Assembly: GCA_902727985.1 (NCBI GenBank)
Contig: CACVAY010000112.1
Span: 1 to 64,000, forward strand
Length of the DNA stretch: 64,000 nucleotides
Reading direction: 5' to 3'
Source: an uncultured Thiotrichaceae bacterium
GTDB taxonomy: Bacteria > Pseudomonadota > Gammaproteobacteria > Thiotrichales > Thiotrichaceae
Shown one piece after another: positions 31,311 to 62,019 of this stretch. A program made the translations under genes and the position numbers. Within the stretch, counting starts at the first letter, position 1, and every line of letters starts with the position of its first letter. The notes beneath the pieces are model-generated. The model made no database searches and had not been told where the DNA came from. It saw nothing but the letters and a program-made list of their open reading frames with translations.

Positions 31311-32729
31311 ATGGCGAAGAAATACGAAGCTGGTGTTAAGGAATATCGGCAAACTTATTGGCAGCCAGAATATGTCCCGTTGGACTCTGATATTCTGGCA
31401 TGTTTTAAGATCAGCCCGCAACCTGGTGTTGACCGTGAAGAAGCTGCAGCCGCTGTGGCAGCAGAATCTTCAACAGGTACATGGACTACGGTATGGACTG
31501 ACCTTTTGACCGATATGGATTATTACCGTGGACGTGCGTACTCAATCGAAGACGTACCAGGTGATGATTCTTGCTTCTATGCATTTATCGCATACCCAAT
31601 CGATCTTTTTGAAGAAGGTTCGGTTGTAAACGTATTTACCTCTTTGGTAGGTAACGTATTCGGATTTAAAGCGGTACGTGCTCTACGTCTGGAAGACGTA
31701 AGATTCTCGCTACACTACATCAAGACATGTAATGGACCACCGCATGGTATCCAGGTTGAGCGTGATCATATGACTAAATATGGTCGTCCAATGCTGGGTT
31801 GTACTATCAAGCCTAAGCTTGGTCTATCGGCTAAAAACTACGGTCGTGCGGTATATGAAGTACTACGTGGTGGACTTGATTTCTCGAAAGATGATGAAAA
31901 CATCAACTCACAGCCATTCATGCGTTGGAGAGATCGCTTCTTGTTTGTTCAAGATGCAATCGAAACTGCTGAGGCTCAAACAGGTGAGCGTAAAGGTCAC
32001 TACCTTAACGTTACTGCTCCTTCTCCAGAAGAAATGTACGAGCGTGCTGAATTTGCTAAAGAGATTGGTTCTCCGATCATCATGCATGACTTCCTAACAG
32101 GTGGTTTGACTGCAAACACAGGTCTGGCTCGCTGGTGTCGTAAGAATGGTGTGTTACTTCACATTCACCGTGCAATGCACGCTGTACTAGATCGTAACCC
32201 ACATCACGGTATTCACTTCCGTGTTCTAACTAAAGCACTTCGTTTGTCAGGTGGTGATCATCTCCATACGGGTACGGTTGTTGGTAAGTTGGAAGGTGAC
32301 AGAGCGTCAACATTAGGTTGGATCGATTTACTACGTGAATCATTCGTTCCTGAAGATCGTTCACGCGGTATCTTCTTCGATCAGGACTGGGGTTCAATGC
32401 CTGGTGTATTCGCTGTTGCTTCGGGTGGTATCCACGTATGGCACATGCCTGCGCTAGTTAGCATCTTTGGTGATGACTCAGTACTCCAGTTTGGTGGTGG
32501 TACTCTTGGTCACCCTTGGGGTAACGCTGCTGGTGCTGCTGCTAACCGTGTCGCTTTGGAAGCGTGTGTAGAAGCTCGTAACCGTGGTGTTGAATTAGAA
32601 CGTGAAGGTAAGGAAATCCTTACTAAAGCTGCTAACTCAAGCCCAGAACTTAAGATCGCTATGGAAACATGGAAAGAAATTAAGTTTGAGTTCGACACAG
32701 TCGATAAGCTTGATACACAGAACCGTTAA
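31311..32729 (+). CDS. cbbL: RuBisCO large subunit, form IA (carboxysomal)
   Basis: 472 aa, standard length. Catalyses carboxylation of RuBP. Active-site motifs: [17 protein letters not shown] (catalytic lysine), [24 protein letters not shown] with the carbamylated lysine and Mg ligands, [14 protein letters not shown], and [35 protein letters not shown] strong GGAAGGAG site precedes the ATG. First gene of the alpha-carboxysome operon, with a short leader containing GCCTC-gtc-GAGGC (31260-31272). Confidence 0.99.
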
Positions 32730-32747
32730 TCTTAAGGAGTAAATAAT

Positions 32748-33077
32748 ATGTCTAATGTTGCAGACTTCAAACAGTCAATTAAATTTGAAACATTTTCTTA
32801 TTTACCTGCTTTAACATCTGAAGAAACTCGTGCTCAGATTCAATACATCGTTTCACAAGGTTGGAACCCTGCGATTGAGCATGTTGAGCCAGCACGTGCA
32901 GCTGATATTTACTGGTTCATGTGGAAGCTTCCCATGTTCGGTGAGCAGAGTGTTGATGAAATTCTTACAGAGCTAGAAGCGTGTAAGCGTGAATATCCGA
33001 ATCATCACATTCGTTTGATCGGCTATGACAACTATACGCAGAGTCAAGGGACAGCATTCGTTGTATATCGCGGCTAA
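32748..33077 (+). CDS. cbbS: RuBisCO small subunit, form IA
   Basis: 109 aa. Caps the L8S8 holoenzyme. Motifs: [33 protein letters not shown] and [41 protein letters not shown]. Good AAGGAG before the start; 18 bp after cbbL. Confidence 0.99.
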
Positions 33078-33104
33078 TTAATCCACAGACTTGAGGATAT
33101 AAAC

Positions 33105-35456
33105 ATGCCACAAAATGTGACAAGCGCCGACAAAAAACGTATGGCGCAAGAGGCCCGGACACGGGCCGCACTAAAAAAGCAGAGCGGAGGTGGCAGGTCT
33201 CGTACAAGACCTGCAAGACCAAATGGTAGCGCGGCAGCGAGTGCCAGTTCTGATGTAACGATGACAGCCAATGCTCCTGCGAATGGCGCACCTTCTCAAG
33301 ATATCTCAGCAGCTAATACGTTAAGTGCTGAGATGTTGAAGGGGGCCGTTGATCAATTTGAGACTGCTGATGAAAACGTAGCAGACGAATTGTGTGAAAT
33401 GGTTGTTACCAACCCTGCAGCGTTAGGGTCGTTAACACCTGCTATTCGTAGGCTCTGTCGTAATCGCCGCAAAGTCATTTCCTCGAGAGGGAAAGTCGGT
33501 GTGATGAAAACGCGTAATGCATCGGGTACTTCTAGTAACGCGATGCTAGCGAATGCATTACTTGATGATGATGCGGGTTCGAGAGATTTTGCAAAGAGCC
33601 GACGTTCTGCTATCAGCAGGATGGGGCGAGGCAATAAGCCGAAAAGTCGGCCAAGTCGGCCTCAGCGTCCAAAAGTAGCGCCGCCTAAAGTTGAGGTTGG
33701 AACAACGCTATCCGGTGGTTCTGTTACAGGGACGCAGGTTGAACGTATTGAGAACGTTACAGGTAACGAGCAAGGAATATGTCGTTCGGTAACGGGTACT
33801 GAGTACATTGGTACTGAACAATTCTCCAACTTTTGTGATACCACTCCAGAGAAACCAACGCCGAAGGTTGGCGCAAGTCTTACGGTTTCAGGTGGGGCAG
33901 TTTCTGGCACAGAAATCGGACGTTCTGTAAAGATGACAGGTGATGAGCAAGGTTCATGTCAGGCGGTTACTGGTTCTGAATACCTTGGCGCTGAACGGTT
34001 TGCTGATTTTTGTGACAACAAGGGCTTAACTCAGCCAGCTAATAAAGTTGTTGCAGGAACTAGCCAGAAGCAAGGTATCTCGATTACTGGTGCTGACGAA
34101 GCCAGGCAGAATGCTACAACGGGGATGGAAATTGGTGCTGATAGACCTATTACAGGTTCTCAGTACACAGAAGTCTCTAAGGATTTGTCGAGTTACTCAT
34201 CTGGTCGTTCTAATTTGCCAAGCAAAATGGAGCGCCCTGAAGCACCTGGTGGATCAGGTGTTACTGGTGATGAATACAGTTCCTATGATGAGATTACTGG
34301 CTCAGATTATTCGTTCAATTCTCCGTCATTTTCTTATAGCAGAGCATCAAGTGAAGCTGCGCAAGTGCCGAGCAAAGTAGGTGTTGATGCCTCATGTTCG
34401 GGACAACGTATTACAGGCAACTTGGTCGATCGTTCTGAGAAAGTTACGGGTAATGAACATGGTTCTGATCGACATTTGACAGGTTCTCAGTACGGCCGTA
34501 ATAGCTGTGCACAGCCTTCAAAGGTTTCATCGACCCATGCTTTCGCGGGTGGTCGGTTGACTGGTAACAGGGTAGAACATGACCCAAAAATCAACGGTGA
34601 TGGGATCAGCGGGTGTCAACCTGTCACCGGAACGGAGCTACATGGTTTAGAGCAATTAGCTGACCATTGTTCCAGCACCCAAGTGCCTGTTTCAGCAGGG
34701 TTCGATAATACGCCACCGATGGTGCCGCCACAACCAGCAGTAGAGCCTCATGCGCATGATTTTGCACAGGCGATACCGCAACAGTTTGTGCAGCCAACAG
34801 TGGCGCATGTCCAGCCCCAGAACGCAGTGCCAGCAGCTGCTCCTCAGGGTGCATGCTGCAACCAATGTGCAGCGAGACAGTTAGCGGAACAGGCCGGTTT
34901 GTTACATGGTCACCAGCATCCGCAAGCTCAACCAGCCATGATGCAAGAGCCGCAAGCTCAGCATTATGTGCAACAAAATGTGGGGATGGTCACAGGCCCA
35001 AATAACATGGGCTTGGGAGTGGTTTCAGGTGTGCCTGAAGCACATTATCCACAACACGCTGTACAAACCACGGCAAATGTTCCTGTCTATCAGACGCAGA
35101 CAGCGCAATTTGCACAACAGCATGCATATCCTAACCCTAACGGGCAGGTGCAGCCTGTTGAACAAGCCCATGATCCCTTTTCTCATCGAGTTACAGGAGA
35201 AGGTCGTGATGATGGTTTGCCCATAACAGGTGATAACTGGGCGCGTGGTGATCAGGTAACTGGCACAGAAGGGCGTTGGTCGCAAGGCCGCAACCCTACG
35301 CTACAAGTGGACTCCAGAATGAATGTTCCGGGAGCGCATTTAAACAAAGGGATGGATCGTCCTCAAGCAGTAGAGCCTATTGCTCCAATAACCGGGAGTA
35401 GCGGTAATACTGAGTCAGGTGCACAGGTGACGGTATCGGGCGGAGCCCGAGGATAG
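33105..35456 (+). CDS. csoS2: Carboxysome scaffold protein CsoS2
   Basis: 783 aa, intrinsically disordered linker between RuBisCO and shell. The basic N-terminal region (to about residue 190) contains the helical RuBisCO-binding segments (e.g. KKRMAQEARTRAALKKQ, RRLCRNRRKVISSRGK). The middle has repeats of the SGxxVTG...VTGNEQG...VTGTEY type, several with the paired cysteines (SNFC, ADFC). The C-terminus carries ITGDNWARGDQVTGTEGRW and the typical closing VTVSGGARG. Unusual is a Q/P/H-rich stretch (about residues 527-686) with a CCNQC motif between repeats and C-terminal peptide. I could not identify a definite slippery site for the -1 frameshift known in some species. Confidence 0.96.
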   Translation: MPQNVTSADKKRMAQEARTRAALKKQSGGGRSRTRPARPNGSAAASASSDVTMTANAPANGAPSQDISAANTLSAEMLKGAVDQFETADENVADELCEMVVTNPAALGSLTPAIRRLCRNRRKVISSRGKVGVMKTRNASGTSSNAMLANALLDDDAGSRDFAKSRRSAISRMGRGNKPKSRPSRPQRPKVAPPKVEVGTTLSGGSVTGTQVERIENVTGNEQGICRSVTGTEYIGTEQFSNFCDTTPEKPTPKVGASLTVSGGAVSGTEIGRSVKMTGDEQGSCQAVTGSEYLGAERFADFCDNKGLTQPANKVVAGTSQKQGISITGADEARQNATTGMEIGADRPITGSQYTEVSKDLSSYSSGRSNLPSKMERPEAPGGSGVTGDEYSSYDEITGSDYSFNSPSFSYSRASSEAAQVPSKVGVDASCSGQRITGNLVDRSEKVTGNEHGSDRHLTGSQYGRNSCAQPSKVSSTHAFAGGRLTGNRVEHDPKINGDGISGCQPVTGTELHGLEQLADHCSSTQVPVSAGFDNTPPMVPPQPAVEPHAHDFAQAIPQQFVQPTVAHVQPQNAVPAAAPQGACCNQCAARQLAEQAGLLHGHQHPQAQPAMMQEPQAQHYVQQNVGMVTGPNNMGLGVVSGVPEAHYPQHAVQTTANVPVYQTQTAQFAQQHAYPNPNGQVQPVEQAHDPFSHRVTGEGRDDGLPITGDNWARGDQVTGTEGRWSQGRNPTLQVDSRMNVPGAHLNKGMDRPQAVEPIAPITGSSGNTESGAQVTVSGGARG

Positions 35457-35476
35457 AAGGTTAAGAGGATTAGTTT

Positions 35477-37069
35477 ATGAATACACGAAATGCATACGCT
35501 ATTCGAGCGGCAAAAATGCAAAACAGTCGAACGACGAGAAGTCGTAGGGTTGCTACTGCATCGGCGCCAGCTGGATTAGCGCTTGCAAACGCAGATTCTA
35601 CTCCTGTTCCTCTAGAAGAGGCTGCTGCAGCATTGTCTACTCAATCTTGTAGCAGTCTTCCTCCTCGTCATACCAGGCATCCGTTAACGGATGGATACAT
35701 GAATGCGCGCTTGGCGCATTGTGAAGAGTCAGTGAATGGCCGCTTCGACGCGATCATTCCTGCATTAAGAGCCATAGCAGATCGTCCCTATGGTAGTGGC
35801 TACGACAATGACGTGCAGAAAATTGCAAGTCAGTATCTTGGCTATAAATTACCTCAATCCAGTCTGGAGTACGCTTGGATTGAAGGCCCCAATATGAAGA
35901 AGCTGTATGGGCATTGTGCCTTTACAGCACTACAAAAGTCGGTGGAGCAATTCACTGATGATTTGAAAAATCAAGTAGAGACTGTTCAGGATACCCGTAA
36001 TTTCTTTTTAGATTGTGGTTATCACGCGGTTGACATCAGTCCTTGTTCCGATGGTCGCTTGAAAGGACTCATGCGCTACATCTTGAGGCTGCCCTTATCA
36101 TCATTTACGCGTCGAAAAGCATACGCAGGTGCATTATTTGATGTTGAAACCGATGTGAAACATTGGGCAGATACCGAATTAAAACGTTTTCGTGAGGGTG
36201 TACCTTCAACAGTTGATTCAGGAACACGCTACCTGAAAATAGCGGTATATCATTTCAGTACCAGTATGCCAACGCATGAAGGATGTGCAGCTCACGGAAG
36301 TAATGATAAACAAGCGATTGGTGCGGCAATAGAACGCCTTGAGCAGTTTAAAGAAGCTATCGAAAACTCCTTTTGCTGTGGGGCAACGACCGATATTTTA
36401 CTAATTGGCGTTGATACCGATAACGATTCGATTCGTGTTCATACCCCTGACTCAACCGGCAAGATAAATGCTTATCGTTATGTTGATAATGCTGAATTAT
36501 ATGCCTCAACAGTTAGTCTTACAGAAGATGATGGTCGCATTAGTGTTCACGAAACCATTAGAAACTCTTGCATGCAGGATGGGTGGGCGAAAGCAGACGG
36601 TGAGCCTCATGAGGGCATGCGTCGTCTTATAGCAAACTTATTAATAAACAATCTTTCGCAGATTGATTATGTTTCAGACCTCTACGGTGGTGTCTATTCC
36701 GATATTGGCCATGGCGAAAAATATATCAGCGTGGGGGACGGCATTGAAGAAGTACAGATGCGCAACCTCGCTTATTACGCTCACCTCCACACATTGGAAG
36801 AAGGTGTGGCTGACATGGATGTTGGTATTAAGATCTTGACTGGCTTGAATGTGAAACACGGTTTGCCGATTCCTATCGCCATTCATTATCGCTATGACGC
36901 CAAAGTACCTAGCGCACGTGAACGTGTGATTGAAAAAGCGCAGCGTGTAAAAGCGGCTATCCAGAAGCGTTATGCGGACTTGGATAAAGAAGATTTCCTA
37001 GCTTTTCAGTTAACCATACAAGATCGTCCAACAGGTAGTGAGTTCGAGCTTGTGGAGAGCGCGTTATGA
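35477..37069 (+). CDS. csoSCA: Carboxysomal carbonic anhydrase CsoSCA
   Basis: 530 aa, divergent beta-class carbonic anhydrase on the inner face of the shell, converting bicarbonate to CO2 for RuBisCO. Candidate zinc ligands are Cys190, His259 and Cys270, with the Asp192-Arg194 dyad in PCSDGR; the spacings (69 and 11 residues) equal those of the characterised Halothiobacillus enzyme (C173, H242, C253). The basic, disordered N-terminus (about 1-60) is where CsoSCA binds RuBisCO. It overlaps csoS4A by 4 bp. Confidence 0.96.
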   Translation: MNTRNAYAIRAAKMQNSRTTRSRRVATASAPAGLALANADSTPVPLEEAAAALSTQSCSSLPPRHTRHPLTDGYMNARLAHCEESVNGRFDAIIPALRAIADRPYGSGYDNDVQKIASQYLGYKLPQSSLEYAWIEGPNMKKLYGHCAFTALQKSVEQFTDDLKNQVETVQDTRNFFLDCGYHAVDISPCSDGRLKGLMRYILRLPLSSFTRRKAYAGALFDVETDVKHWADTELKRFREGVPSTVDSGTRYLKIAVYHFSTSMPTHEGCAAHGSNDKQAIGAAIERLEQFKEAIENSFCCGATTDILLIGVDTDNDSIRVHTPDSTGKINAYRYVDNAELYASTVSLTEDDGRISVHETIRNSCMQDGWAKADGEPHEGMRRLIANLLINNLSQIDYVSDLYGGVYSDIGHGEKYISVGDGIEEVQMRNLAYYAHLHTLEEGVADMDVGIKILTGLNVKHGLPIPIAIHYRYDAKVPSARERVIEKAQRVKAAIQKRYADLDKEDFLAFQLTIQDRPTGSEFELVESAL

Positions 37070-44306: not shown

Positions 44307-47300
44307 ATGATTTTGTTATCTGTGCTTATATTAGCATGTCAGAGATTCTTTCTTTCGAGCGTAATAAATAGATCTTCCTTGCTGGCGTATGATGGTTTTT
44401 ATGTGTCTTTTCTTCTACGAATCTTCAAAAAATCACCTTCTTTTAGGGCAAAAACTGTCCCTATATATGGCGTGATAGTGAATGTTTTACTGATTACATC
44501 TGTCCATGCAGGAACGACGGTTACTGTTTCTGATGAGGCGTTCGGTAATAATGCAACAGGACGTTCACAAGCAGCTACCTTGGATGATGCTTGGGTTAGT
44601 TCGCTCCCGAGTGGTATTTTTAGTCCTGATCTATTTAGTGGGGGAGCAGGATATACAGGGACAAAAACATTTGTTGATACAACCGGTGCGGCTTACACCG
44701 TCGATTGGCGACTCGGATATGTGCAGGATACAGGGCCAGGCACACCCACATCTACAAGTTTTCATTTAGCGACTGGAGGCACTCCTACTTATGGTGTATC
44801 TACTCAAATTCAATCAAATGCGCCTAACCCTTTAAGTAGTGAAACCCGATTATCTGTCAAGGTTAGCGGTAGCACCGTTTTATCTGCAATGGAGCTCAGT
44901 TTTGTTAATAGTGCGACAACGGTGTATGAATTCGGGATATTTATTGGTGACTTGGAGTCACGTCCGGTACATGGAACGACAGGTCGTGCGATTGTTTATG
45001 ATACCTTGGGAGGGCTGTTAACGGATACGCCTATCGTTTATACGGGAGCCGTATTGAACGGCACGAATTACACCGTGACAGAGCTCACTCCCTCTGGTGC
45101 AGCAGGAAACAATAGTGGGGATTGGGGGAATGAAACCACGGCCTTTTTGACGATTAAATCTGATCAGCCAATCGGAAAAGTTATTTTTCATGTGGGTGAT
45201 GATGACCATACCACTGGTAATACGGGCATCAGTGAGCAATTAGGTTTTGTTGGTTTCCAGTTGCCTGAAGTTCCCTATGTGCCACCAACAATAACTGGCA
45301 ACCCATCTCCCGATACCGATGGTGACGGTGTACTGGATGGTGAAGATATTGATGATGATAACGATGGCATTCTGGATGTCTCGGAGAAGGTGTGTAGTAC
45401 GATTCCGTTAGATCTGTCAGGCGTGACAAATACCAGTCCTGCACTGAGTAATCGCGCTTTATCAGCAATGGTTGGTGCGGGGACTTTCACCTCGAATATA
45501 ACGACGAACTATAGTAGTTCTGATTCAGTCAAACCTGAAGGATTGGCTGATGGGGATTTGCGTTTGGGTAACACGGATCAAACAGAGATTTCCGAGTATG
45601 AAGTCACTTTTGCGTACCCCACGGATATCAAATTGTCACAGGCTAATGTGTACGGTGCATTCGAAGAGCAAGAAACATGGACGATTACAACAGATGGCGG
45701 GGCTATGATAGTGAATAATCCGGTTATCAATGCCACAACATCAAACGCAAACAACTTTAACGATACCGAATTACGCAATGTGACAGGTAATAATAGCCAG
45801 CAGGTCAGTTTTGTACCCAATCAGCTCAATAGTACGGGGCAAATAATGCCAGCAGATTCACAATGGCATATTGTTGCTAAAGATGTCACTCGGTTAGTCG
45901 TTCGCTTGGAAACAACTACATTAGGTAACAATTGGGCGCGTATAAGACTAGCTGTTGATTGTGTGCCATTGGATAGTGATGGAGACGGTTTTGCCAACCA
46001 CCTTGATTTGGATAGTGATAATGATGGTATTCCAGACAATATAGAAGCGCAAAAAACAGAAACCTATATAGTGCCAGACCAGACCTACAACGTGGACGGT
46101 TTAGATACTGCGTATGTGGCTAGCAATGGATTAAGCCCGGTTAATACCGATGATACAGATATACCCGATTATCTGGATACCGATGCAGACAATGATGGTG
46201 AATTTGATATTGTTGAATCAGGGCTTGGGAATAATGATAGTGATGGAGATGGCAGAACAAATAATACTGTCGGCAACAATGGTCTGGATAATGCGGCAAC
46301 GATCGAAAGTGCGGATAATTATAGCGATGTGAATGGGCTTGCACATGATGGCAGTATTTTTACCCTCCTTGATAGCGATGATGATACGGATCCAACAGGT
46401 GTGAATGCCTCTCCCGTGGTTACAGATGTAGATTACAGAGATATTCCTGTTGATTATAGTGATGCTCCTGTGAGTGGAGTAGCTCCTGATGGCAGTAGTC
46501 TCAATGCTTATGGGGCAGCCAGCCATATTATTGTGGATGGTTTGTATCTGGGGGCGGGCATACCTGATGAGGATGGTGCGAATCAGCCCTCCACCAATGC
46601 AGATGGCGATGACAATGATGGTATCGATGATGAAGATGGTATTGGTTTACCTTCCCTCGTAGCAGGTGATACAGCGTATACCATTGCGACTGCTGATATA
46701 GCGGCGAACGGTAGTGGCACTTTGCACGCCTGGATCGACTTTGATGGCAACGGTGTTTTTGATGCTGATGAGCATACAAGTACGGCAGTGAATAACGGAA
46801 CGGTCGTTGCAACATTGAGCTGGACAATCGATGGGGTAGGTGGAAACCCTGATTTCACAGTGATAGGTGGGAAGACTACCTTTGCTCGTTTTCGCCTAAG
46901 TTCCGATACTTCTATTACTGCGAGTACACCTGCTTCTCTTGCCACTGATGGGGAGGTTGAAGATTATGCCCTAACCATTGAGCATATGCGTTTATCTGTC
47001 AGCGGGCGTGTTTTCAACGATGCCAATGTTGATCGTGTGAATGATTCAGGAGAGAAGGGGGTGAGTGGCTTGCCTGTCGTACTCTTCGATGGAACTCACT
47101 GTGTGAGTACTCGTACTGGAAGTGATGGTAACTATATCTTCACAGACGTAGCGCCGGGTAACTACCAGGTTTACGAGGCCTCACGAGAGGCAGTACCCGT
47201 GCCAATAAATTGTGGTATTGGGAATGCCAAGGACTCCAACAATTATCATTCAAGCACCTTGAATGCTACAGCCTTATTTGTGGTGAATAATGTTGATGTA

Positions 47301-48092
47301 ACAGGTGTTGACTTTGGTGATGTGAAAAAGCCGACGTTCAAACCTGATAATAGTGGAACAATCCTACCTGGAAATGTGCTCTTGTATCGCCATGAGTTTG
47401 TTCCACTAAGCACAGGTAGCGTCAGTTTCAGCAGTGCGAACGCCATACCAGCAACTTCAGGTTGGTCGCAGGTGCTTTATCAAGATGCGGACTGTAATGG
47501 CGAGTTAAATGGTCATGAAACCGCTGCTCCAGTTGGCGCGGATCTTGTGACAACCGCAGGTACGGCCATTTGTTTGATCAATAAGGTGTATGCGCCAAGT
47601 AATGTGGGTGGGGGCGAAGATTACAGCAATGTGATTACTGCTGATTTCACGTTTGGCAACCCGGCGAATACAACCGCAGGAACGATATCGCTAAGCGTGA
47701 CAGATCTGACTAAAGCGGCGGCAAATAATGTACAAGGCGTATCTCGTTTAGCGCTTAAGAAGACTGTGCAGACCTATCGAGGGACACCTTTAGCAGCTGT
47801 TTCGGCAGAATCAGAAACACAAAATCAGGCTCAGCCTGGTGATGTTCTCAAGTATCGCATCTATTACAGCAATACTGGAGATGCCCCGTTGAGTGATCTA
47901 AACATCAAAGATGTTGTGCCTGAGTTTACGAGTTTGAATGGTTCGCCATTGTGCGAAGTCCCATTGCCAGCCAGTTTGACGAGCTGTACAGCACTGGTCA
48001 GTGGCAGTGATATTGAATGGAGCTTCCCTGTTAGTGATAAGCTAAATGGGGGGAGTAGTGGGATGGTGAGTTATGAGGTGAAAATTGACTAA
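44307..48092 (+). CDS. Large secreted multidomain protein (TSP3, GEVED, SdrD-B-like, DUF11 domains)
   Basis: 1261 aa. After an N-terminal hydrophobic signal ([18 protein letters not shown], about residues 51-68) comes an unassigned beta-rich domain. Thrombospondin type 3-like calcium repeats follow ([22 protein letters not shown]; a second set near [22 protein letters not shown]), then a GEVED domain ([13 protein letters not shown]...[14 protein letters not shown]...[11 protein letters not shown]), an SdrD-B-like beta-sandwich ([32 protein letters not shown]...[15 protein letters not shown]), and a DUF11-like repeat at the end ([29 protein letters not shown]). Probably exported and surface-bound or released, with a role in adhesion. 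The N-terminus is unusually long before the signal; a GTG near 44403 would give a more normal one. No C-terminal anchor or autotransporter domain is seen. Confidence 0.85.
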
Positions 48093-48515: not shown

Positions 48516-48612
48516 TTTCAATTTATTTGGAATAAATACCTAAGCTGCTTCGTCTAGACTTAAGAGTGACGTAATACTTTGCGTCACTAATATGGTTTAG
48601 TGTGGAGTGGCA

Positions 48613-49137
48613 ATGATTTTTCCCCGCAAGCGTCGGTTTCGTCAGCAGTTAGAAGTGTTGCAACCGGTGTTGTTCAAATTAGCTTGGTCATGGTGTCATG
48701 ATCAAGAGCTAGCGAATGACTTGGTGCAAGACACCTGTCAGGTTGCATTAAAGAAGTATCAGCACCTCCAAGACCTTTCAAAAGCCAAGCCTTGGCTGGT
48801 TCGCATTCTTGCGAATCTTCATATTGACCACTGTCGTCGACAAAAAGATATTATCCCATTTAATGATGAATACCCCACGCAGGGTAATGATCCGGCTGAA
48901 CTCAATGGACGGCTTGATGATATTGAGTGTGTACGACGTGCTATTGCCAACTTGCATCATGATCATCGTAAAATCATCACGCTGGTTGATCTTGCAGAAT
49001 GCTCCTATGCCGAAGTAGCCGATATTCTGGATATTCCAGTAGGTACAGTGATGAGCCGATTGAGTCGGGCGCGAACACAACTACGTAGCACTCTGGAATC
49101 ATCTCATTACAAACCCATGCTGCGGAGCGTCAAATAA
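48613..49137 (+). CDS. ECF RNA polymerase sigma factor
   Basis: About 174 aa with region 2 (LVQDTCQVALKKYQHLQDLSKAKPWLVRILANLHIDHCRR) and region 4 (HRKIITLVDLAECSYAEVADILDIPVGTVMSRLSRARTQLR). GGAG sits before the ATG at 48613. Its stop overlaps the anti-sigma start (ATGA-type overlap), making a classic ECF/anti-sigma pair. Confidence 0.93.
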   Translation: MIFPRKRRFRQQLEVLQPVLFKLAWSWCHDQELANDLVQDTCQVALKKYQHLQDLSKAKPWLVRILANLHIDHCRRQKDIIPFNDEYPTQGNDPAELNGRLDDIECVRRAIANLHHDHRKIITLVDLAECSYAEVADILDIPVGTVMSRLSRARTQLRSTLESSHYKPMLRSVK

Positions 49138-54091: not shown

Positions 54092-54187
54092 AACTGGATT
54101 TGCTAGTAGCGCAAAGACCAACGATTCACACGTTTGGAGAATCAAAAGATACCAATTCACCACTCACAAACTCGAGAAAACCTGTTC

Positions 54188-54955
54188 ATGATCAAATATA
54201 CATCTACTGTTGCAAAGAAACACGCATCAACTGAGCATAGATATATCGCGAAAAATGCCCAAACGGAGGCTACGCTTCCCGATGGCTACGATTGGGAATC
54301 TTATCGGGCTTATGTTGGCCCACCGGAGGAATATGATGTGTTTTCCGCCATGGTATTCAACCTGCTGACCAGTCTTGGGCTACGGCAGCATCACCGGATA
54401 CTGGATATTGGCTGTGGTTCCCTGCGCCTTGGTCGGTTGTTTATGCCCTATCTCAATCCGGGCAATTATTATGGCGTAGAACCCAATCAATGGCTGGTAG
54501 AAGCGGGCATTCAACATGAAACTGGTCAAGACTTGATACAAATAAAAAAGCCAGTTTTTTGTTTTGCTGATTCAATGGCCGAATTCACCCAACCGCTGGC
54601 ATTGAATTACGCCGTGGCGCAATCCATCTTCAGTCATTGTGGCAATGACCTGCTCGAAAATTGGTTATCAGAAATCGCATTTCATTTGCAAGACGATGGT
54701 GCCTTATTAGCGACCTTTTTGCTGGGTGACAGAGACTATTCAGGTGATGGCTGGATATACCCTGAATGTGTTTGCTATCGGCCTGAAACCATGGCGACAA
54801 TAGCCAGCAAGTACGGTTTGGGATTTGATATCTTGGACTGGGCGCATCCACGTCAAACTTGGGCACTTTTTTCCAAACCGGGCTATGACAAAAGGCTGAT
54901 TCAGGGTGGGCCGATCGGTTGGAATCGACTGATGCGTAATGGGGATGATGAATAA
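54188..54955 (+). CDS. SAM-dependent class I methyltransferase
   Basis: About 255 aa. The SAM site ILDIGCGSLRLGRLFMPYLNPGNYYGVEPNQWLVEAG (motif I and acidic loop) is clear, followed by motif IV-like region LNYAVAQSIFSHCG. The target is unknown; similar enzymes act on sugars or small metabolites. An upstream TTG (54134) could add 18 residues. Its stop overlaps the next gene's start (TAATG), so it is coupled to the sulfotransferase. Confidence 0.85.
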   Translation: MIKYTSTVAKKHASTEHRYIAKNAQTEATLPDGYDWESYRAYVGPPEEYDVFSAMVFNLLTSLGLRQHHRILDIGCGSLRLGRLFMPYLNPGNYYGVEPNQWLVEAGIQHETGQDLIQIKKPVFCFADSMAEFTQPLALNYAVAQSIFSHCGNDLLENWLSEIAFHLQDDGALLATFLLGDRDYSGDGWIYPECVCYRPETMATIASKYGLGFDILDWAHPRQTWALFSKPGYDKRLIQGGPIGWNRLMRNGDDE

Positions 54956-55779
54956 TGTTGGAGCCAACCAAAACCAGCACACCTATCGTTAAAGCAACTT
55001 TGCTCTCATTTCCTAAATCGGGCCGTACCTGGCTGATACAGCAAATAATAAGCTATCTCAAATATTATTTTAACCCTACTAAGCTCCAGGTTGAAAAATT
55101 CAATCTCCACAGGCTCGATTCATGGAATGCTTTCCAACCCATTGTGCCTCTTTTTAACATCACTCATGATGACAATCCGCATCTGAAAACCCGGCAAGCG
55201 CTATCCGAAGATAAAAGTGAATTTAACGATGATACCGTTGTTTTATTGGTTCGCGACCCTCGTGATGTCATTGTGTCATTATATTTTGAAATGACCCGGC
55301 GCAGCCAATTTTATGAGGTATGGGGTTTTGACACCTCGAATTTTCCTTCTAAATACACACCAATCAGTGCTTTTATTCGAGGTGAACAGGGTGGGATAGA
55401 TTCTATTATCAGGTATTTTGAGATATGGGATAAAGCAAGCCAAGCACTTGAAAATTTTATTTGCATCCACTACGAAGACATGAAAACAAATACAGAGAAC
55501 ATACTAGTCAAGGCTCTCCAGCATTGGAATCTACCTATTGAGCCAGATTGTATTGCTGAGGCGATTAAAGCGTGTGAATTTGAACGCATGCAACACAAGG
55601 AAGCCAAAGGTGATTACCAAAGTTTATCACTCACCCCGGCTGATCAAGAAGACCCGGAGTCATTCAAGGTCAGGCGAGGGAAGGTAGGAGGATATATAGA
55701 TTACTTATCAACAAATGACATTGCTTACCTGAATTCACGTTGCTCAACGCTTCCGGGATATTTTGCCAGATATAGATAA
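54955..55779 (+). CDS. PAPS-dependent sulfotransferase
   Basis: 274 aa. The 5'-phosphosulfate loop LLSFPKSGRTWLIQQIISYL and the 3'-phosphate site VVLLVRDPRDVIVSLYFE match the sulfotransferase_1 family, and the C-terminal RRGKVGGYIDYL matches the conserved RxGxxG motif. It would move a sulfate group from PAPS onto a hydroxyl or amine acceptor. It is convergent with the RiPP-like operon on the minus strand and may decorate its product (inference). Confidence 0.9.
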   Translation: MLEPTKTSTPIVKATLLSFPKSGRTWLIQQIISYLKYYFNPTKLQVEKFNLHRLDSWNAFQPIVPLFNITHDDNPHLKTRQALSEDKSEFNDDTVVLLVRDPRDVIVSLYFEMTRRSQFYEVWGFDTSNFPSKYTPISAFIRGEQGGIDSIIRYFEIWDKASQALENFICIHYEDMKTNTENILVKALQHWNLPIEPDCIAEAIKACEFERMQHKEAKGDYQSLSLTPADQEDPESFKVRRGKVGGYIDYLSTNDIAYLNSRCSTLPGYFARYR

Positions 55780-55816: not shown

Positions 55817-56605
55817 TTATGTGAATCTTTTGAAAAACTCTACTATATCTTCTACTTCACTCGTATTTATCAATGAAAATTTCGAGCCGTATTGTTTATT
55901 GCAAACTTCATTTAACGTAGAAAAGTCGTCAAGTTTGAAATACTCATTATCAATTTGCATATATTTATAGTTTTGACTGTTCTCAAAAACAAATACTATG
56001 TGTTTTGCCGTGTTGCAAACCTCTACCATTCTCGAAATTCGATTATTTAAAATATTATTTGTTATCTGTAAATTCTCACGAGGATCTGCAATACCTTTTG
56101 ATTTGTCGGGGGATGAGTGCAAACTGTAATTTGTGTTATCAGCAGCTGAATGCCAGTTTCGAGCTAATTTATTAGAGAATCGATGCCAGTTGTAATGAGC
56201 CAATACAAATTTATGAAACTTGTCTAATGTATAGTATCCAAAAGTAGAGTCCAAATACATATTAATATTTTCAATATTTCTATCAACTACTATTTTATTA
56301 ATTTCATCGTATGTAGATGTATTAAATTTAATGCCTAGTCCATACTTAGGGTCAATATTTGATTCATTCATGGTACAAACTGCATGACTTTGACCATTAT
56401 CATCAAATTCTAGGTTTATTTTGGGGCGTGTTAATACACTTGCAACGGCATGTGGTGGAAAGAAACCTAGGTCAAATGGTAAACGAGCCTGATCTATACC
56501 CAATTTATCCTTTAACATAGAAAAAGTATGGCAGCGAAATCCTATTGGAATAATGGCTATCTCACCACTGTTAACTAAAGCACTTAATTCCAGTGTATGT
56601 TCCAT
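55817..56605 (-). CDS. DUF1796-like (papain-like cysteine peptidase fold) protein
   Basis: 262 aa. IAIIPIGFRCHTFSMLKDKLGIDQARLPFDLGFFPPHAV resembles the conserved N-terminal Cys motif of DUF1796 proteins, described as putative cysteine peptidases; histidines occur at FVLAHYNWHRF. It is much more A/T-rich than the other genes of the operon, a sign of separate origin. It starts 12 bases after the PhyH stop on the same strand, so it is the last gene of the seven-gene operon. A role in removing the leader of the YW peptide is a guess. Confidence 0.6.
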   Translation of the reverse strand: MEHTLELSALVNSGEIAIIPIGFRCHTFSMLKDKLGIDQARLPFDLGFFPPHAVASVLTRPKINLEFDDNGQSHAVCTMNESNIDPKYGLGIKFNTSTYDEINKIVVDRNIENINMYLDSTFGYYTLDKFHKFVLAHYNWHRFSNKLARNWHSAADNTNYSLHSSPDKSKGIADPRENLQITNNILNNRISRMVEVCNTAKHIVFVFENSQNYKYMQIDNEYFKLDDFSTLNEVCNKQYGSKFSLINTSEVEDIVEFFKRFT

Positions 56606-56617
56606 ATTCTAAGAGCC

Positions 56618-57451
56618 TCAATCAACAACGTGTTCGGGATGGGCTTCATCAAACCACTGCTGCTCATAATGGCTACACGGCCAGCGTTTTTCCAGGGCAT
56701 AAGGGTGGGAAAAGTTACCATAGCGCAATTGCAGAGTCCAACGGGGGTGTGGTGTCAGATTAGGGTAACTCTTGTGCAGTAACAAGCTGTTGAAAATAAT
56801 CGCGTCTCCCTCATTGATTGGCAAGCGAATATGGGGATAGCTATCTACGACGGTCTTATCCGCCAACTGTAAATTGTTTACCTCATCCATTTTGACCGGA
56901 ATAATGCCAGCGCGGTGCGAACCGGGCGCTACCATCATGCAACCGTTTTCTTCGTTGACATCGTGCAATGGCATCCAGTAAATCAGCGCGTCAGGCGAAT
57001 CCTGCACATAGGGATAATCCTGATGCCAGGGCAGCAGATAATTTTCTCTCTGCTGATAGTCCATGCGAATGGTTTTATAGGGCGAGGTCATCACCAACTG
57101 AGTTTGCATCAACTGTTTTGAACAATGCAGTATTTTTTCAGCCACCGAGAGTTGGTGCACACTGGTAAGACGACGGCTGGCATTAAAGAGCACCGAGGCG
57201 TATTCAGGTTGTCGCTCGATCAGCTCAGCAAAACCTTGATCAAAACGATGTCCGCTGGTTTTTGCTGGAGGCAGGCCTGCTTCTTTGCGCAGCAAATCAA
57301 TCAAATCAATCAATTCCTGCTGAACCGGTTCCAGTTCCTGTTTCTGCAAGAAATCGCGCACAACACAACAGCCCCATTGGTCGAGGTTCTGCGCCATTTT
57401 TTGCAGGCTACCCGCAATAGCATAGTCAACGCTCAGTGTTTGGATATTCAT
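56618..57451 (-). CDS. PhyH-family (phytanoyl-CoA dioxygenase-like) Fe(II)/2OG dioxygenase
   Basis: 277 aa. Iron ligands are visible in LLPWHQDYPYVQ (HxD) and LLLHKSYPN (distal His), with the 2-oxoglutarate arginine near HPRWTLQLRYG and the PhyH signature YWMPLHDVNEENGCMMVAPGSHRAG. Such enzymes hydroxylate or oxidatively cyclise small molecules or peptides. In the crocagin pathway an iron dioxygenase-type step is part of core formation, so this is a candidate for oxidising the Tyr or Trp of the peptide. It starts 2 bases from the glycosyltransferase stop. Confidence 0.88.
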   Translation of the reverse strand: MNIQTLSVDYAIAGSLQKMAQNLDQWGCCVVRDFLQKQELEPVQQELIDLIDLLRKEAGLPPAKTSGHRFDQGFAELIERQPEYASVLFNASRRLTSVHQLSVAEKILHCSKQLMQTQLVMTSPYKTIRMDYQQRENYLLPWHQDYPYVQDSPDALIYWMPLHDVNEENGCMMVAPGSHRAGIIPVKMDEVNNLQLADKTVVDSYPHIRLPINEGDAIIFNSLLLHKSYPNLTPHPRWTLQLRYGNFSHPYALEKRWPCSHYEQQWFDEAHPEHVVD

Positions 57452-57452
57452 G

Positions 57453-58658
57453 TCATGCCGTCTCGTGCTGCTGTAAAAAATTTCTGATGGTGGTAATGGC
57501 CTTATCCGTTCCCCCGGCTTGATGAAATGCCTTGCTCATTTGTTGTAAACTTTTTCTGGCATTTGGGTTGTGCATGGTTTTCTCGGCCAATTTGCGCAGG
57601 TTTGTTGCGGAAATATCCGGTTTAACCCATTGGCCCAAATTCAGAGTTTGTATTCGATTGGCTACCAGATGCTGGTCACCGCCCTGGGGGAATAGCAACA
57701 TAGGCACCTGTTCCAGCAAGGCTTCCCACACGCTGTTGGTACCGCCGTGAGTAATAAACAGGCTGGCTTGTTTTAGCATATCCAACTGTGGAACATAGTC
57801 CAGTACAGATACATTCTCCGGGATGTTTCCTAACGTGGTGCGATCCAGACCACGCCCAACGGACATCACAACCTGATAAGGCGCACTGGCAAACGCTTCA
57901 ATGCATTTGCGATAAAAATCGGCATTCTTATTGTAAGTTTTGATAGAACCCAAGGAGATATAAATACTAGCTGGTGGCACGGGTGTATCGTCGAACGGGC
58001 GTTCACCATAGCAAGGGCCGATAAAATGGTAGCTATCATCAAAATCAGGTAGGTTATCCTGAAATTCTCGTGCTGGATAAACCAAATTCAGGTCGCCGCG
58101 CAAATTGATACAGTTCGGCTGCCACTTAAACAGGTCGGCTTTGTGTATTTTGTGCAAATGATATTGTTGTTGCAGCGCCTGCCAGAGTTTTAAATCACGG
58201 CGATACCATTGCCATTGCGTAAAACGCCTACCGGATGGAAATCCTGCAGTCAGCACGGCAAAGGGAGGAAAATAATGGCGCGGCAGCAGATAATTAGTAT
58301 GTATGCATACCGAAGGTATGTCGAGACATTCGGCTAACACAGCAGCCCAAAGGCATTTGCCAGTAAAAATAATCAACGCTGGTGGGCTTGCCTGTAGCTG
58401 GCCGACTAAGGTTGCAACATTATCGAGCGTATATTCAAGCACCCGGTATTGCAGGGTTTCACCATTGATTTTGGCTTTGAATGATGGCAGGCAGCAAAAA
58501 TTGGCACCGACTGATTCCACCAGGAGTTTTGAATCTTCCAGGCAATAATAATCCAGTGGGTGGCCTTGCTGAGCCAACCCCTCAGCAACCGCCAAAGTGG
58601 TCGTAATACGGGTGTTATCCGGCAAGTCAAAAAAAGCGATGGGCTGGACAGTTGGCAT
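57453..58658 (-). CDS. UGT/MGT-type (GT1) glycosyltransferase
   Basis: About 401 aa GT-B fold. The C-terminal donor site VLDYVPQLDMLKQASLFITHGGTNSVWEALLEQVPMLLFPQGGDQHLVANRI is the MGT/UGT signature (THGGxxS, PxxxDQ). These enzymes glycosylate macrolides, polyketides and other secondary metabolites with UDP- or dTDP-sugars. Start taken at MPTVQPIAF; a TTG 12 bases upstream is possible. It suggests a glycosylated final product. Confidence 0.92.
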   Translation of the reverse strand: MPTVQPIAFFDLPDNTRITTTLAVAEGLAQQGHPLDYYCLEDSKLLVESVGANFCCLPSFKAKINGETLQYRVLEYTLDNVATLVGQLQASPPALIIFTGKCLWAAVLAECLDIPSVCIHTNYLLPRHYFPPFAVLTAGFPSGRRFTQWQWYRRDLKLWQALQQQYHLHKIHKADLFKWQPNCINLRGDLNLVYPAREFQDNLPDFDDSYHFIGPCYGERPFDDTPVPPASIYISLGSIKTYNKNADFYRKCIEAFASAPYQVVMSVGRGLDRTTLGNIPENVSVLDYVPQLDMLKQASLFITHGGTNSVWEALLEQVPMLLFPQGGDQHLVANRIQTLNLGQWVKPDISATNLRKLAEKTMHNPNARKSLQQMSKAFHQAGGTDKAITTIRNFLQQHETA

Positions 58659-58672
58659 ATGGTGGTGCAACC

Positions 58673-59425
58673 TTATTCTTTTTGTGCAACAGTAATCAGG
58701 CGTTTCGAATCAAAGCCGTAGGGGTCACCAGCAAAACTCCCATAAAAGGCAATGCGGGAAAACCCAACTTGCTGTAATAATGCCTTCAATTCACAGGCCG
58801 AATAAAGCCAATACTGCATTGTAAAGAAAGCAGGCTTCTTTTCACCACGGATTAAAATATGTTCTACGGTGAGTTTGTTCCAATCACACTCAACGCTTGC
58901 TTTTTTGATCATGATGTCTCCGTTTGGCAGGGTTCTCGAGTTGGTGGGTTGGAGTAAGCGGGCAAAATTCTCTCTGGAAACGATATCAAGAACAAAAACT
59001 CCCTTGGCTTTCAAATTTTGAAAAGCATTTTCCAAAACTCTCTGGTTGTCGGCCGGATCATCAAAATACCCAAATGAATGGTACATATTGATAACCAAGT
59101 CGAAAGTGTCGGGTTGTTTGAATGTTTTTACATCTTCAAGAATCCAGTTGACGTTGGTGTCCTCTTGGACAGCATAGTCGCGAGCTTTGCTAAGCAAAAA
59201 TGCACTCAGGTCAACCCCGGTAACGGAATACCCCTGTTTGGCAAGTGGTACGCTATAACGACCGGGACCACAACACTGATCTAACACCGCAGAACCGGAA
59301 AAATCACAAAAATTTATAATTGAGCTTATTCTCTCCCAGCCAGAAAAAAAGTCCTCCTGAGGAAACATGGATGGATAAGATGCAGTCCAGAACTCTTCGT
59401 CAGCAAACCAACTATTTGTAGTCAT
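58673..59425 (-). CDS. SAM-dependent methyltransferase
   Basis: 250 aa. SAM motif I SAVLDQCCGPGRYSVPLAKQGYSVTGVDLSAFLL and motif LVINMYHSFGYFDDPADNQRVL are typical of class I small-molecule methyltransferases. In crocagin biosynthesis an N-methyl group is added to the tricyclic core, which makes this a candidate for the same or a related step. It lies between the glycosyltransferase and the paired peptide-binding proteins. Confidence 0.9.
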   Translation of the reverse strand: MTTNSWFADEEFWTASYPSMFPQEDFFSGWERISSIINFCDFSGSAVLDQCCGPGRYSVPLAKQGYSVTGVDLSAFLLSKARDYAVQEDTNVNWILEDVKTFKQPDTFDLVINMYHSFGYFDDPADNQRVLENAFQNLKAKGVFVLDIVSRENFARLLQPTNSRTLPNGDIMIKKASVECDWNKLTVEHILIRGEKKPAFFTMQYWLYSACELKALLQQVGFSRIAFYGSFAGDPYGFDSKRLITVAQKE

Positions 59426-59442
59426 AATTTTTCTCTATGGGG

Positions 59443-60354
59443 CTAATTAGGAAAATGCAGATTTGGTTTTTTTGCCCAAAAATCGAGGAAAGGGATTTGC
59501 TCACCCATACCCATACCGATATGCACGCCGTTATTGCTCTGATGCAGCAGGGTGTTAAATGCATAGTCAGGGTTGATGTCCAGCAAGCCCAAAGCCAGTT
59601 CGGTAACATTGGTTTGCCACTCCCTGCCATCACAAAGCTCAACCAGCTCACCAGTCATATCTTTACCACCAAGCACCAAACCAGTAATCGCATTATTTTC
59701 GATCTGCAGACGGTTATTCCCTTGCCGGGATAAATCGCGCATTTCCTGCATCAATGGCAGGCTTTGTTGCCATAGTTCTTGATAGTTGGCTTGATACAAT
59801 AAGCCATCAATCGTGATTTCACCGACCAGGCTAAAGGTAGAAGTGGGTGCTTCCAGGTTCAGGATTGAAGCTTTAAGGAATTCAGTGAGGGAGTACAGGT
59901 AGCCGGATTCCAGTTCCTTCTCATAACTGGCGATTTCGACTTCTTCCGAAATATGGCAATGTAAGGACGCACCAGGGGTTTGTATGTTGATTTGATCGTA
60001 GGATAGCAATTGTTCATAGGCCGCATCGCGCTGCGCCAACAGGGCTGCATAATCTATCGTCAGTAATGTCTCTAGCGTATAGCGGAGTGGGTCAATACCA
60101 CCTCCAGCCTTGGATTGCGTCATTTGTACGACTGTGCCACCCGCTGTATCCCAAAGCGGTTCCATGCCGTATTGACTCGTGTAATCTGAGATTAGCCACA
60201 AGACAGCTTCAGTATTGGCAGCAAAGTCAAATCTGGCAGTAAGCGCAACCTGCTGAAAGCCTAGTTGGCGTACTGCGGCTTCAGTTTGCTCATTATCCAC
60301 CACCACATGCAAATCGCGCGCCTGTAAGTGGGTTAAAAATTCAAGATCTCGCAT
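59443..60354 (-). CDS. M29-aminopeptidase-like protein, CgnB/CgnE type (copy 2)
   Basis: About 303 aa, homologous along its length to the next gene. Shared motifs: YSLTEFLKASILNLEAPTSTFSLVGEITIDGLLYQ / YSIAEFFETSIVNLADNKSSFCVDG; AITGLVLGGKDMTGEL / SITKMVLGGQDFTAKM; and the end TELALGLL...GVHIGMGMGEQIPFLDFW. M29 aminopeptidases bind two metals through E/H/D in TE-hGxN, ExGTxHhAxG and SxxHxD. Here the last H-x-D reads IPFLDF, so a ligand is lost, suggesting an inactive, peptide-binding protein like CgnB/CgnE of crocagin biosynthesis. An upstream TTG (60363) is possible. Confidence 0.7.
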   Translation of the reverse strand: MRDLEFLTHLQARDLHVVVDNEQTEAAVRQLGFQQVALTARFDFAANTEAVLWLISDYTSQYGMEPLWDTAGGTVVQMTQSKAGGGIDPLRYTLETLLTIDYAALLAQRDAAYEQLLSYDQINIQTPGASLHCHISEEVEIASYEKELESGYLYSLTEFLKASILNLEAPTSTFSLVGEITIDGLLYQANYQELWQQSLPLMQEMRDLSRQGNNRLQIENNAITGLVLGGKDMTGELVELCDGREWQTNVTELALGLLDINPDYAFNTLLHQSNNGVHIGMGMGEQIPFLDFWAKKPNLHFPN

Positions 60355-60372
60355 TGGTATCAAAAGCCGGGG

Positions 60373-61299
60373 TTAATGGACAAATTCAAGCCGTGCCCCC
60401 GCCGAGATAAAATCAACATGCGAGGTATCTACCGCAATACCAATACCAACATGCATACCAACAATGCCTTCATTCATAATGGAATTAATGCGCCAGTCCG
60501 GCATCTTGGGATGGTTAACTACGCCAAAAGCGAATTCAGTTAAGGAAAGTCCACGTATCGAGTCTGCAAAGGCTTCATTCATTTTGGCAGTGAAATCTTG
60601 GCCACCCAGAACCATTTTAGTAATGCTGTTGTCCTGACATTCGAGCCAGTTATCACCTTTGACTGATAGGTTTACCATCTCGGTTAGTAGAGGGGCAAAC
60701 TCTGTTTTCAATTCCGGTGAATTTTCTAGGTAACTCAGTCCGTTAAAAACTAGCTTGCCATCAACACAGAAAGAAGATTTATTATCTGCAAGATTAACAA
60801 TGGAGGTTTCAAAAAACTCGGCAATAGAATACAGCCAGCCTTCCTCCAGTTCAGCATCATAATTGGCGACTTCCACCTCTTCCGCCAAAACCCCAGTCAG
60901 AACACTATTTTCACCGCTGTGAATGTTAATAAGCTTAGCAGACAGCGCTTTTTCATAAAGCACGTCTCTATGTGCGAGCGTTGCCGCATAATCGGGTATA
61001 TCCAATATTTTTTGGATTGAGTAATCCACTGCTTGCAATGAGCCATCAAATTTAGCAGCAGCAAGATGTACAAATATTCCACCGCAATTATCCCAAAGTT
61101 CTTTGTTCATTCGATACTGAGAAGGATAAGTACTCAACAAGACAAATACCGGATCAGTATTAGCAGCAAAATCAAAATCAGCAAAATCAGCAAAGTCGGT
61201 AAACCCATGTTTGCGAAATAGATCTGTTATCGCATTATCATCAGTAATAACCAATAGCTTTCTTTCCCGAAACATATTCAGAAATTCATGGGTTTTCAT
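60373..61299 (-). CDS. M29-aminopeptidase-like protein, CgnB/CgnE type (copy 1)
   Basis: 308 aa paralogue of the downstream gene, 9 bp to 18 bp apart. Near the C-terminus it keeps more of the metal-site pattern than its sister: SLTEFAFGVV, GMHVGIGIAVDTSHVDFISAGARLEF, with the H-V-G and S-H-x-D histidines in place. It could therefore still bind metal, or simply be less decayed. Paired homologous proteins of this size directly after a tiny peptide gene ending in YW match the crocagin cluster layout, where CgnB and CgnE bind the precursor peptide and guide its cyclisation (recalled, not looked up). Confidence 0.72.
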   Translation of the reverse strand: MKTHEFLNMFRERKLLVITDDNAITDLFRKHGFTDFADFADFDFAANTDPVFVLLSTYPSQYRMNKELWDNCGGIFVHLAAAKFDGSLQAVDYSIQKILDIPDYAATLAHRDVLYEKALSAKLINIHSGENSVLTGVLAEEVEVANYDAELEEGWLYSIAEFFETSIVNLADNKSSFCVDGKLVFNGLSYLENSPELKTEFAPLLTEMVNLSVKGDNWLECQDNSITKMVLGGQDFTAKMNEAFADSIRGLSLTEFAFGVVNHPKMPDWRINSIMNEGIVGMHVGIGIAVDTSHVDFISAGARLEFVH

Positions 61300-61350
61300 T
61301 AGCTCAGGACTCTTTAATTTACAGATGGGTTTACAATCTGTCGACTATAG

Positions 61351-61387
61351 AAAAATCTCCGCCTCTCGAAAGTGACAGAGATTTTTT
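61351..61387 (-). terminator. Hairpin between the precursor gene and the operon (attenuator-like)
   Basis: AAAAATCTC (61351-61359) and GAGATTTTT (61378-61386) form a perfect 9-bp inverted repeat; read on the minus strand the stem ends in T residues. It would let most transcripts stop after the tiny precursor gene, a common way for RiPP operons to make far more precursor than enzymes. Confidence 0.6.
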
Positions 61388-61388
61388 G

Positions 61389-61414
61389 TCTCTACCTTAA
61401 ATTTAAGGCAGAGA
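61389..61414. promoter_or_regulatory. Second hairpin directly after the precursor stop
   Basis: TCTCT-a-CCTTAAATTTAAGG-c-AGAGA, a 14-bp palindrome extended by 5-bp arms across one mismatch. No T run, so probably an RNA-stabilising structure at the 3' end of the precursor message. Confidence 0.5.
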
Positions 61415-61425
61415 TCAGTTATGGC

Positions 61426-61488
61426 TTACCAATAAGCGTTTTGACGTGCTTTACGGTTTGCTTTGCTTACTTGCTTTGCTTTTTTCAT
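61426..61488 (-). CDS. Tiny RiPP precursor peptide ending in AYW (CgnA-like), 20 aa
   Basis: Encodes MKKAKQVSKANRKARQNAYW, then TAA. GGAG lies exactly six bases before the ATG, as good a ribosome site as any in the window; an in-frame ATG 12 bases upstream would overlap that site, so the 20-codon form is chosen. The leader (1-17) has five Lys and two Arg and should be helical; the C-terminal Ala-Tyr-Trp matches the Ile-Tyr-Trp core of crocagin. It is the first gene of a minus-strand operon with two CgnB/E-like proteins, a methyltransferase, glycosyltransferase and dioxygenase, and is followed by two hairpins. Too short for standard gene callers. Confidence 0.72.
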   Translation of the reverse strand: MKKAKQVSKANRKARQNAYW

Positions 61489-61550: not shown

Positions 61551-62019
61551 GTAGTAATTATGCGATAAAGTGTGCTGCAAATTCAACCTAGAACGCTTAT
61601 TCTTAACAAAACTTTACATTCGGGTGCTGTGCCACGGTTTTTGCAAATATCAGTAGAAATTATTTCTCATAGTGAAGATGTCTTGGTCATTGGACATGAG
61701 AATTCTGCTAGAAGCATCCATGTTGAATGGTGAACACGTCATCGAACAAGAATACAATAAGGTAGGCTCACTGCATCATTCACATAGAATCACCAAGCCG
61801 CTTGCGTATTGACAAAAGTGCTGATCTATCAGGCAAGGCTTCCAGCGCTGCACTGGTCTATGCGCTGCTATTTATTTGTTATTTGACACAACTTGTGTAG
61901 TAACAGATTAAATATCGACTCTACAATGCGTAAGTCCGATTAAAAGATGGCTTTCAATTTACCTGCTTTATAAAGGATGGCAGAATCCTATAAATTTCTC
62001 TAAGCAAGATAATTACCCA
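61551..62019. other. Divergent promoter region between the RiPP-like operon and an MFS gene
   Basis: About 470 bases, A/T-rich, no gene seen. It must hold the promoter of the minus-strand operon; no known operator is recognised. It also marks the right edge of the island. Confidence 0.45.

Follow-up and report, generated by a model that had tools for sequence, protein, structure and literature searches.

A probable crocagin-type RiPP operon with a glycosyltransferase gene in a carboxysome-bearing gammaproteobacterium

A seven-gene operon on the minus strand of the window (the whole stretch of 64,000 nucleotides analysed here) very probably belongs to the glycosyltransferase-bearing branch of crocagin-type RiPP clusters, with a pathway as proposed below. 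A sequence-only reading had likened the operon to crocagin biosynthesis. This is supported by the match of two of its proteins to CgnB and CgnE, by a precursor ending in xYW, and by the PhyH dioxygenase, the methyltransferase, and the glycosyltransferase. The locus is not a new kind of cluster; such clusters were described in 2023, and their hosts include Gammaproteobacteria. Crocagin-like clusters come in five architectures and have paired CgnB/E, an xYW precursor, CgnC, and a methyltransferase, and CgnB/E homologues are found in Actinobacteria, Cyanobacteria, and Beta-, Gamma-, and Deltaproteobacteria (Adam et al. 2023, PMC10070186). All of these clusters except that of crocagin itself have a glycosyltransferase (PMC10070186). 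A crocagin detection rule is included in antiSMASH 7. According to published mining, most of the class is predicted to be glycosylated, and I came across no paper in which a glycosylated member was isolated. Being compact and having an intact core set, the operon is a practical candidate for the production of a glycosylated crocagin. Relatives of crocagin A are of interest as probes, since it inhibits CsrA, a global regulator, in vitro (PMC10070186).

Operon layout and the paired CgnB/CgnE homologues

The sequence-only reading described a seven-gene minus-strand operon with tight spacing. In an open reading frame check of positions 55817-61488, all seven frames were found and are open, running from 61488 to 55817. 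The features are as follows.

61426..61488, minus strand: precursor gene (CgnA-like), MKKAKQVSKANRKARQNAYW, 20 codons; leader of 17 aa and core Ala18-Tyr19-Trp20 predicted
61335..61430, minus strand: two tandem hairpins in the gap between the precursor gene and P1 (folding energy against shuffles)
60373..61299, minus strand: P1, CgnB homologue, 308 aa (phmmer, zinc ligand alignment)
59443..60363, minus strand: P2, CgnE-like second copy, 306 aa (phmmer, zinc ligand alignment)
58673..59425, minus strand: class I SAM methyltransferase, 250 aa (Pfam Methyltransf_25)
57453..58670, minus strand: macrolide/UGT-type glycosyltransferase, 405 aa (Pfam UDPGT and EryCIII-like_C; TIGR01426)
56618..57451, minus strand: PhyH-type Fe(II)/2-oxoglutarate dioxygenase, 277 aa (Pfam PhyH; HxD)
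55817..56605, minus strand: very distant DUF1796-like protein, 262 aa (weak similarity to a profile of ten DUF1796 proteins)
61892..61937, no strand assigned: 46-base end of a repeated element, the upstream border of the operon (copies on three other contigs)

The spacing is indeed tight from gene 2 to gene 7 (1-17 bases), but not between the precursor gene and P1, where the sole long gap of the operon (126 bases) is occupied by the two hairpins. The P1 and P2 genes are adjacent, with 9 bases between them, and thus lie within the 2.1 kb that defines a pair. The longest form of P2 starts with TTG; 3 codons further on there is an in-frame ATG.

P1 and P2 had been read as two homologous, M29-like proteins of about 300 residues, to be compared with CgnB/CgnE and with leucyl aminopeptidases. 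They are homologous to each other (~38-39% identity), and both matched CgnB/CgnE over the full length with E values of 1e-49 to 1e-68. In phmmer searches of solved structures, P1 matched CgnB (6zsv) with E = 5.5e-68 and CgnE (6zsu) with 2.4e-49, while P2 matched CgnE with E = 2.4e-52 and CgnB with 6e-51. In contrast, no M29 aminopeptidase was matched at E <= 10 among the solved structures or with a four-sequence profile, and Pfam gave no family for P1 or P2, hence no Peptidase_M29. The term M29-like is therefore apt by way of the CgnB/CgnE fold, but not by a Pfam match. According to the literature on CgnB, the M29 aminopeptidases AmpT, PepS, and AmpS are alike in fold and dizinc site, although they have no detectable sequence match to P1 or P2. 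Structure 6zsu is labelled as CgnE and 6zsv as 'uncharacterized protein'; I take the latter as CgnB because Glu161, Glu252, Glu274, His280, His291, and Asp293 of the published CgnB fit it at a single offset.

All six CgnB zinc ligands are retained in P1 (E164, E255, E277, H283, H294, and D296). The corresponding positions of P2 read Lys, Glu, Gln, His, Phe, and Asp, so that three of the six are lost (E161K, E274Q, and H291F in CgnB numbering; K164, Q275, and F292 in P2). One metal site is thus intact and the other broken, as in the crocagin pair; CgnE, however, has two losses, Glu274Lys and His280Tyr, and the combination in P2 differs. It has been reported that the second copy of every pair has broken metal ligands, different each time (Adam et al. 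2023, PMC10070186). By the alignment, P2 fits this rule with its own set of lost ligands. By analogy with crocagin, P1 is presumed to be the peptide-binding, catalytic partner in cyclisation and P2 the partner presenting the substrate. As an independent pair with other lost ligands, P1 and P2 can serve to test this catalytic/non-catalytic division of work. A tree of five sequences (P1, P2, CgnB, CgnE, and a Thermus protein described below) was compatible both with orthology of P2 and CgnE and with a separate duplication, and supports in the published tree are likewise low (PMC10070186). An AlphaFold2 model of P1 with P2 was too poor for use (mean pLDDT 35).

The precursor peptide and the hairpins behind it

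A 20-codon gene whose product ends in AYW had been proposed as the head of the operon, and this was borne out by the frame itself and a ribosome-binding site, GGAG, six bases upstream of the ATG. The leader starts with MKK, and seven of its residues are basic and none is acidic: Lys2, Lys3, and Lys5 are followed by Arg12, Lys13, Arg15, Gln16, and Asn17 and then by the core, so that Asn immediately precedes AYW with basic residues close by. CgnA of Chondromyces crocatus has 21 residues, with Lys2, Lys3, Lys6, Arg13, Lys15, Lys16, Gly17, Asn, and the core Ile19-Tyr20-Trp21 (PMC10070186). Judged by the aligned residues, the leader has the layout of CgnA, namely the MKK start, basic residues before the core, and Asn before xYW; the two peptides are alike in length (20 and 21 residues) and differ in the core, AYW here and IYW in crocagin. 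The first core position is variable, and Gly is well accepted there (PMC10070186). Loci with two copies have a nearby precursor with a conserved Tyr-Trp (PMC10070186). The operon resembles the crocagin-like clusters of Adam et al. (2023) in the close pair, the variable first core residue, and an xYW precursor within 1.5 kb, here with a basic leader and 126 bases upstream of P1.

Could the AYW frame be accidental? Among frames coding for 15-60 residues, the precursor is the only one ending in YW in the whole window, and a Markov-shuffled window yields about one such frame anywhere on either strand. Only 5 of the 6,456 stop codons in all frames of the window are preceded by Tyr-Trp. Since the frame is the sole one, YW before a stop is rare, and the frame lies on the correct strand directly before a CgnB homologue, a chance occurrence is unlikely. 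An accidental frame is part of one rival explanation, which takes P1 and P2 for metal-dependent aminopeptidases of the M29 type and the operon for an unrelated one with a tailoring or saccharide function. The M29 fold is common to CgnB and CgnE themselves according to the literature, and glycan clusters also contain a glycosyltransferase, an oxygenase, and a methyltransferase. However, the full-length match of P1 and P2 to CgnB/CgnE with no M29 match in Pfam or the solved structures, together with the position of the sole YW frame at the operon head behind a ribosome-binding site and with a CgnA-like leader, leaves this explanation effectively refuted.

The tandem hairpins have a folding energy of -32.4 kcal/mol (z = -5.2), and none of 200 dinucleotide shuffles was as stable. 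They were not flagged in a simple consensus terminator scan. Because the stem of the second hairpin runs into a U-rich sequence, the hairpins are likely to be a partial terminator or stabiliser that gives more precursor mRNA than enzyme mRNA. A search for Rfam families at 54-64 kb found none.

Tailoring enzymes, leader removal, and the predicted product

The three tailoring enzymes named from the sequence, a methyltransferase, a UGT-type glycosyltransferase, and a PhyH dioxygenase, were all recovered. The methyltransferase matched Methyltransf_25 (Pfam, E = 1.2e-17) and, among solved structures, the cypemycin N-terminal methyltransferase (E = 2.2e-10), while its score with the daptide MTase model was below the cut-off. 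These matches make this class I enzyme a candidate N-methyltransferase with the N-capping role of CgnL. The glycosyltransferase matched UDPGT, EryCIII-like_C, and TIGR01426, the last with 269.6 bits against a cut-off of 260. This macrolide-type enzyme holds the place of crocagin's carbamoyltransferase CgnI, and none of the seven genes is a carbamoyltransferase. The dioxygenase matched PhyH (Pfam, E = 1.7e-26) and keeps the HxD motif at H143-D145; none of its matches among solved structures is named CgnC, and its family suits the role of CgnC. The operon shares a 2OG dioxygenase and a class I methyltransferase with the crocagin genes (CgnA, B, C, D, E, I, and L), and a methyltransferase and a glycosyltransferase with the other crocagin-like clusters, whose CgnC homologue has a candidate counterpart here in the PhyH enzyme.

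The last gene sets the operon apart from the crocagin cluster. Its product had been called DUF1796-like. It has the N-terminal motif I-x-x-G-x-x-C ... P-F-D (IPIGxxC...PFD) and a later R-I-x-R helix as in DUF1796 proteins. Comparison proteins were gathered from other genomes, and against a profile built from ten of them the protein scored 16.1 bits, while the best of 2,000 shuffles scored 11.0. The likeness is weakly supported; the protein falls under the Pfam cut-off for DUF1796 (PF08795). Beyond this distant similarity, the searches found no relatives, and an AlphaFold2 model of the protein alone was too poor for use (mean pLDDT 37). DUF1796 is described in Pfam as a putative papain-like cysteine peptidase. 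I know of no activity for the family, and to my knowledge a DUF1796-like cysteine peptidase is not a known type of leader peptidase in RiPP pathways.

The crocagin leader peptidase CgnD is a slow enzyme of the SGNH/GDSL type (PMC10070186). No peptidase of this type is among the seven genes; five SGNH hydrolases are encoded elsewhere in the genome and none on the contig of the operon. The text of that paper does not name CgnD as a feature of every crocagin-like cluster (PMC10070186), so its absence marks the operon off from crocagin without excluding it from the class. The operon raises the question of how a leader is removed without CgnD. The DUF1796-like protein is a candidate that could replace CgnD, or it may be another tailoring protein. 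Another difference from the crocagin cluster is that no adjacent dedicated transporter was identified.

The following pathway takes its chemistry and step order from crocagin biochemistry in vitro. The basic leader of the 20-residue precursor would be bound by P1 and P2. P2, with its dead metal site, would pass on the core, Ala-Tyr-Trp, for hydroxylation of the Tyr and Trp beta carbons by the PhyH oxygenase. P1, with its intact dizinc site, would then bring about elimination and ring closure, giving a pyrroloindoline fused to a tetrahydropyrimidinone. A protease, either the DUF1796-like protein or a host enzyme, would release the three-residue core, the methyltransferase would cap its N-terminus, and the glycosyltransferase would attach a sugar, for which the Trp beta-hydroxyl is the simplest site. 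The leader-cutting protein and the position of the sugar are guesses. The masses were calculated by hand: two oxygens were added to the summed residue masses and water was subtracted, which for IYW reproduces the published value of 495.2238 (PMC10070186). The predicted [M+H]+ values are 453.177 for the AYW scaffold, 467.193 for the methylated form, and 629.245 for the methylated and hexosylated form.

Formation of a pyrroloindoline by the operon would follow by analogy with crocagin. The ring has been demonstrated for crocagin only, and according to the literature the products of CgnC by itself, or with CgnE as its sole partner, are mainly hydroxylated or oxidised but not cyclised. A crocagin-family cluster with another modification of YW, such as beta-hydroxylated and glycosylated Tyr/Trp with no tetracyclic ring, is nevertheless improbable: P1 has a complete dizinc site, the proposed driver of ring closure, and Tyr and Trp are both kept. 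The reading of the operon as a crocagin-type cluster stood; the novelty was overstated, since published crocagin-like clusters other than that of crocagin normally have both a glycosyltransferase and a first core residue that varies (PMC10070186). A narrower proposal, a glycosylated and N-methylated AYW crocagin whose leader is cut by a DUF1796-like cysteine peptidase in an autotrophic gammaproteobacterium, is conceivable but doubtful.

Distribution, host, and genomic surroundings

The host had been described as carboxysome-bearing. An alpha-carboxysome operon at 31311-37069 of the window, with genes for the RuBisCO large subunit, CsoS2, and CsoSCA, confirms this, and the host is therefore an autotrophic gammaproteobacterium, possibly a sulfur oxidiser of a Thiotrichales-like kind.

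Another 56 genomes, from the same genus, family, and class, yielded no relatives of P1, and with the family profile no further members appeared among 369 genomes drawn from the class or 398 from the phylum (overlapping sets). Genome and viral contigs were also scanned, with P1 and the four-sequence alignment as queries, and no matches were obtained; these are weak negatives, because Chondromyces crocatus itself was missed with patterns fitting CgnB. A plasmid search found one distant single-copy relative on pAA2-2c of Thermus thermophilus. It belongs to the same family (tblastn, 28% identity over 71%) and has the C-terminal E, H, H, and D ligands but, unlike the paired operon here, it is a single copy with no xYW frame seen. 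Annotated as 'hypothetical' and with no Pfam family, this gene (NZ_AP024931.1:95598-96578) lies directly before the genes of an ABC transporter ATPase and permease. It possibly belongs to a different peptide pathway.

The 46-base sequence at 61892-61937 has copies close to the ends of C68, C98, and C115, three other contigs of the same genome, and is the end of a repeated, probably mobile element. It sits between the operon and an MFS gene at 62020, which is conserved beside grpE/dnaK in a sister species of the same genus that lacks the operon. Import of the operon by horizontal transfer is the simplest reading, since the sampled genomes have no relatives, the sister has the MFS gene without the operon, and the end of a repeated element lies between the two. 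Is the import decaying or silent, and no longer producing? The absence of P1 relatives from the 56 genomes, the adjoining remnant of a mobile element, and the lack of an obvious dedicated transporter or protease would agree with this. However, the seven frames are open and tightly spaced, P1 retains all six zinc ligands, and the oxygenase has its HxD, making a dead operon very improbable.

The MFS gene was rejected as an exporter on the grounds of its conserved place beside grpE/dnaK in the same-genus relative without the operon. On the other side, a methyltransferase-like gene and a sulfotransferase gene (Sulfotransfer_1, E = 2e-17) overlap by one base at 54134-55779 and are convergent to the operon. 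The sulfotransferase at 54955 was left out of the tailoring enzymes for this orientation, though the two genes could add a methyl group or sulfate even if they are not co-directional. Farther away, positions 44307-48092 encode a protein of 1,261 aa that carries SdrD_B and GEVED domains; next comes a gene for a sigma-70 family factor (48607-49137).
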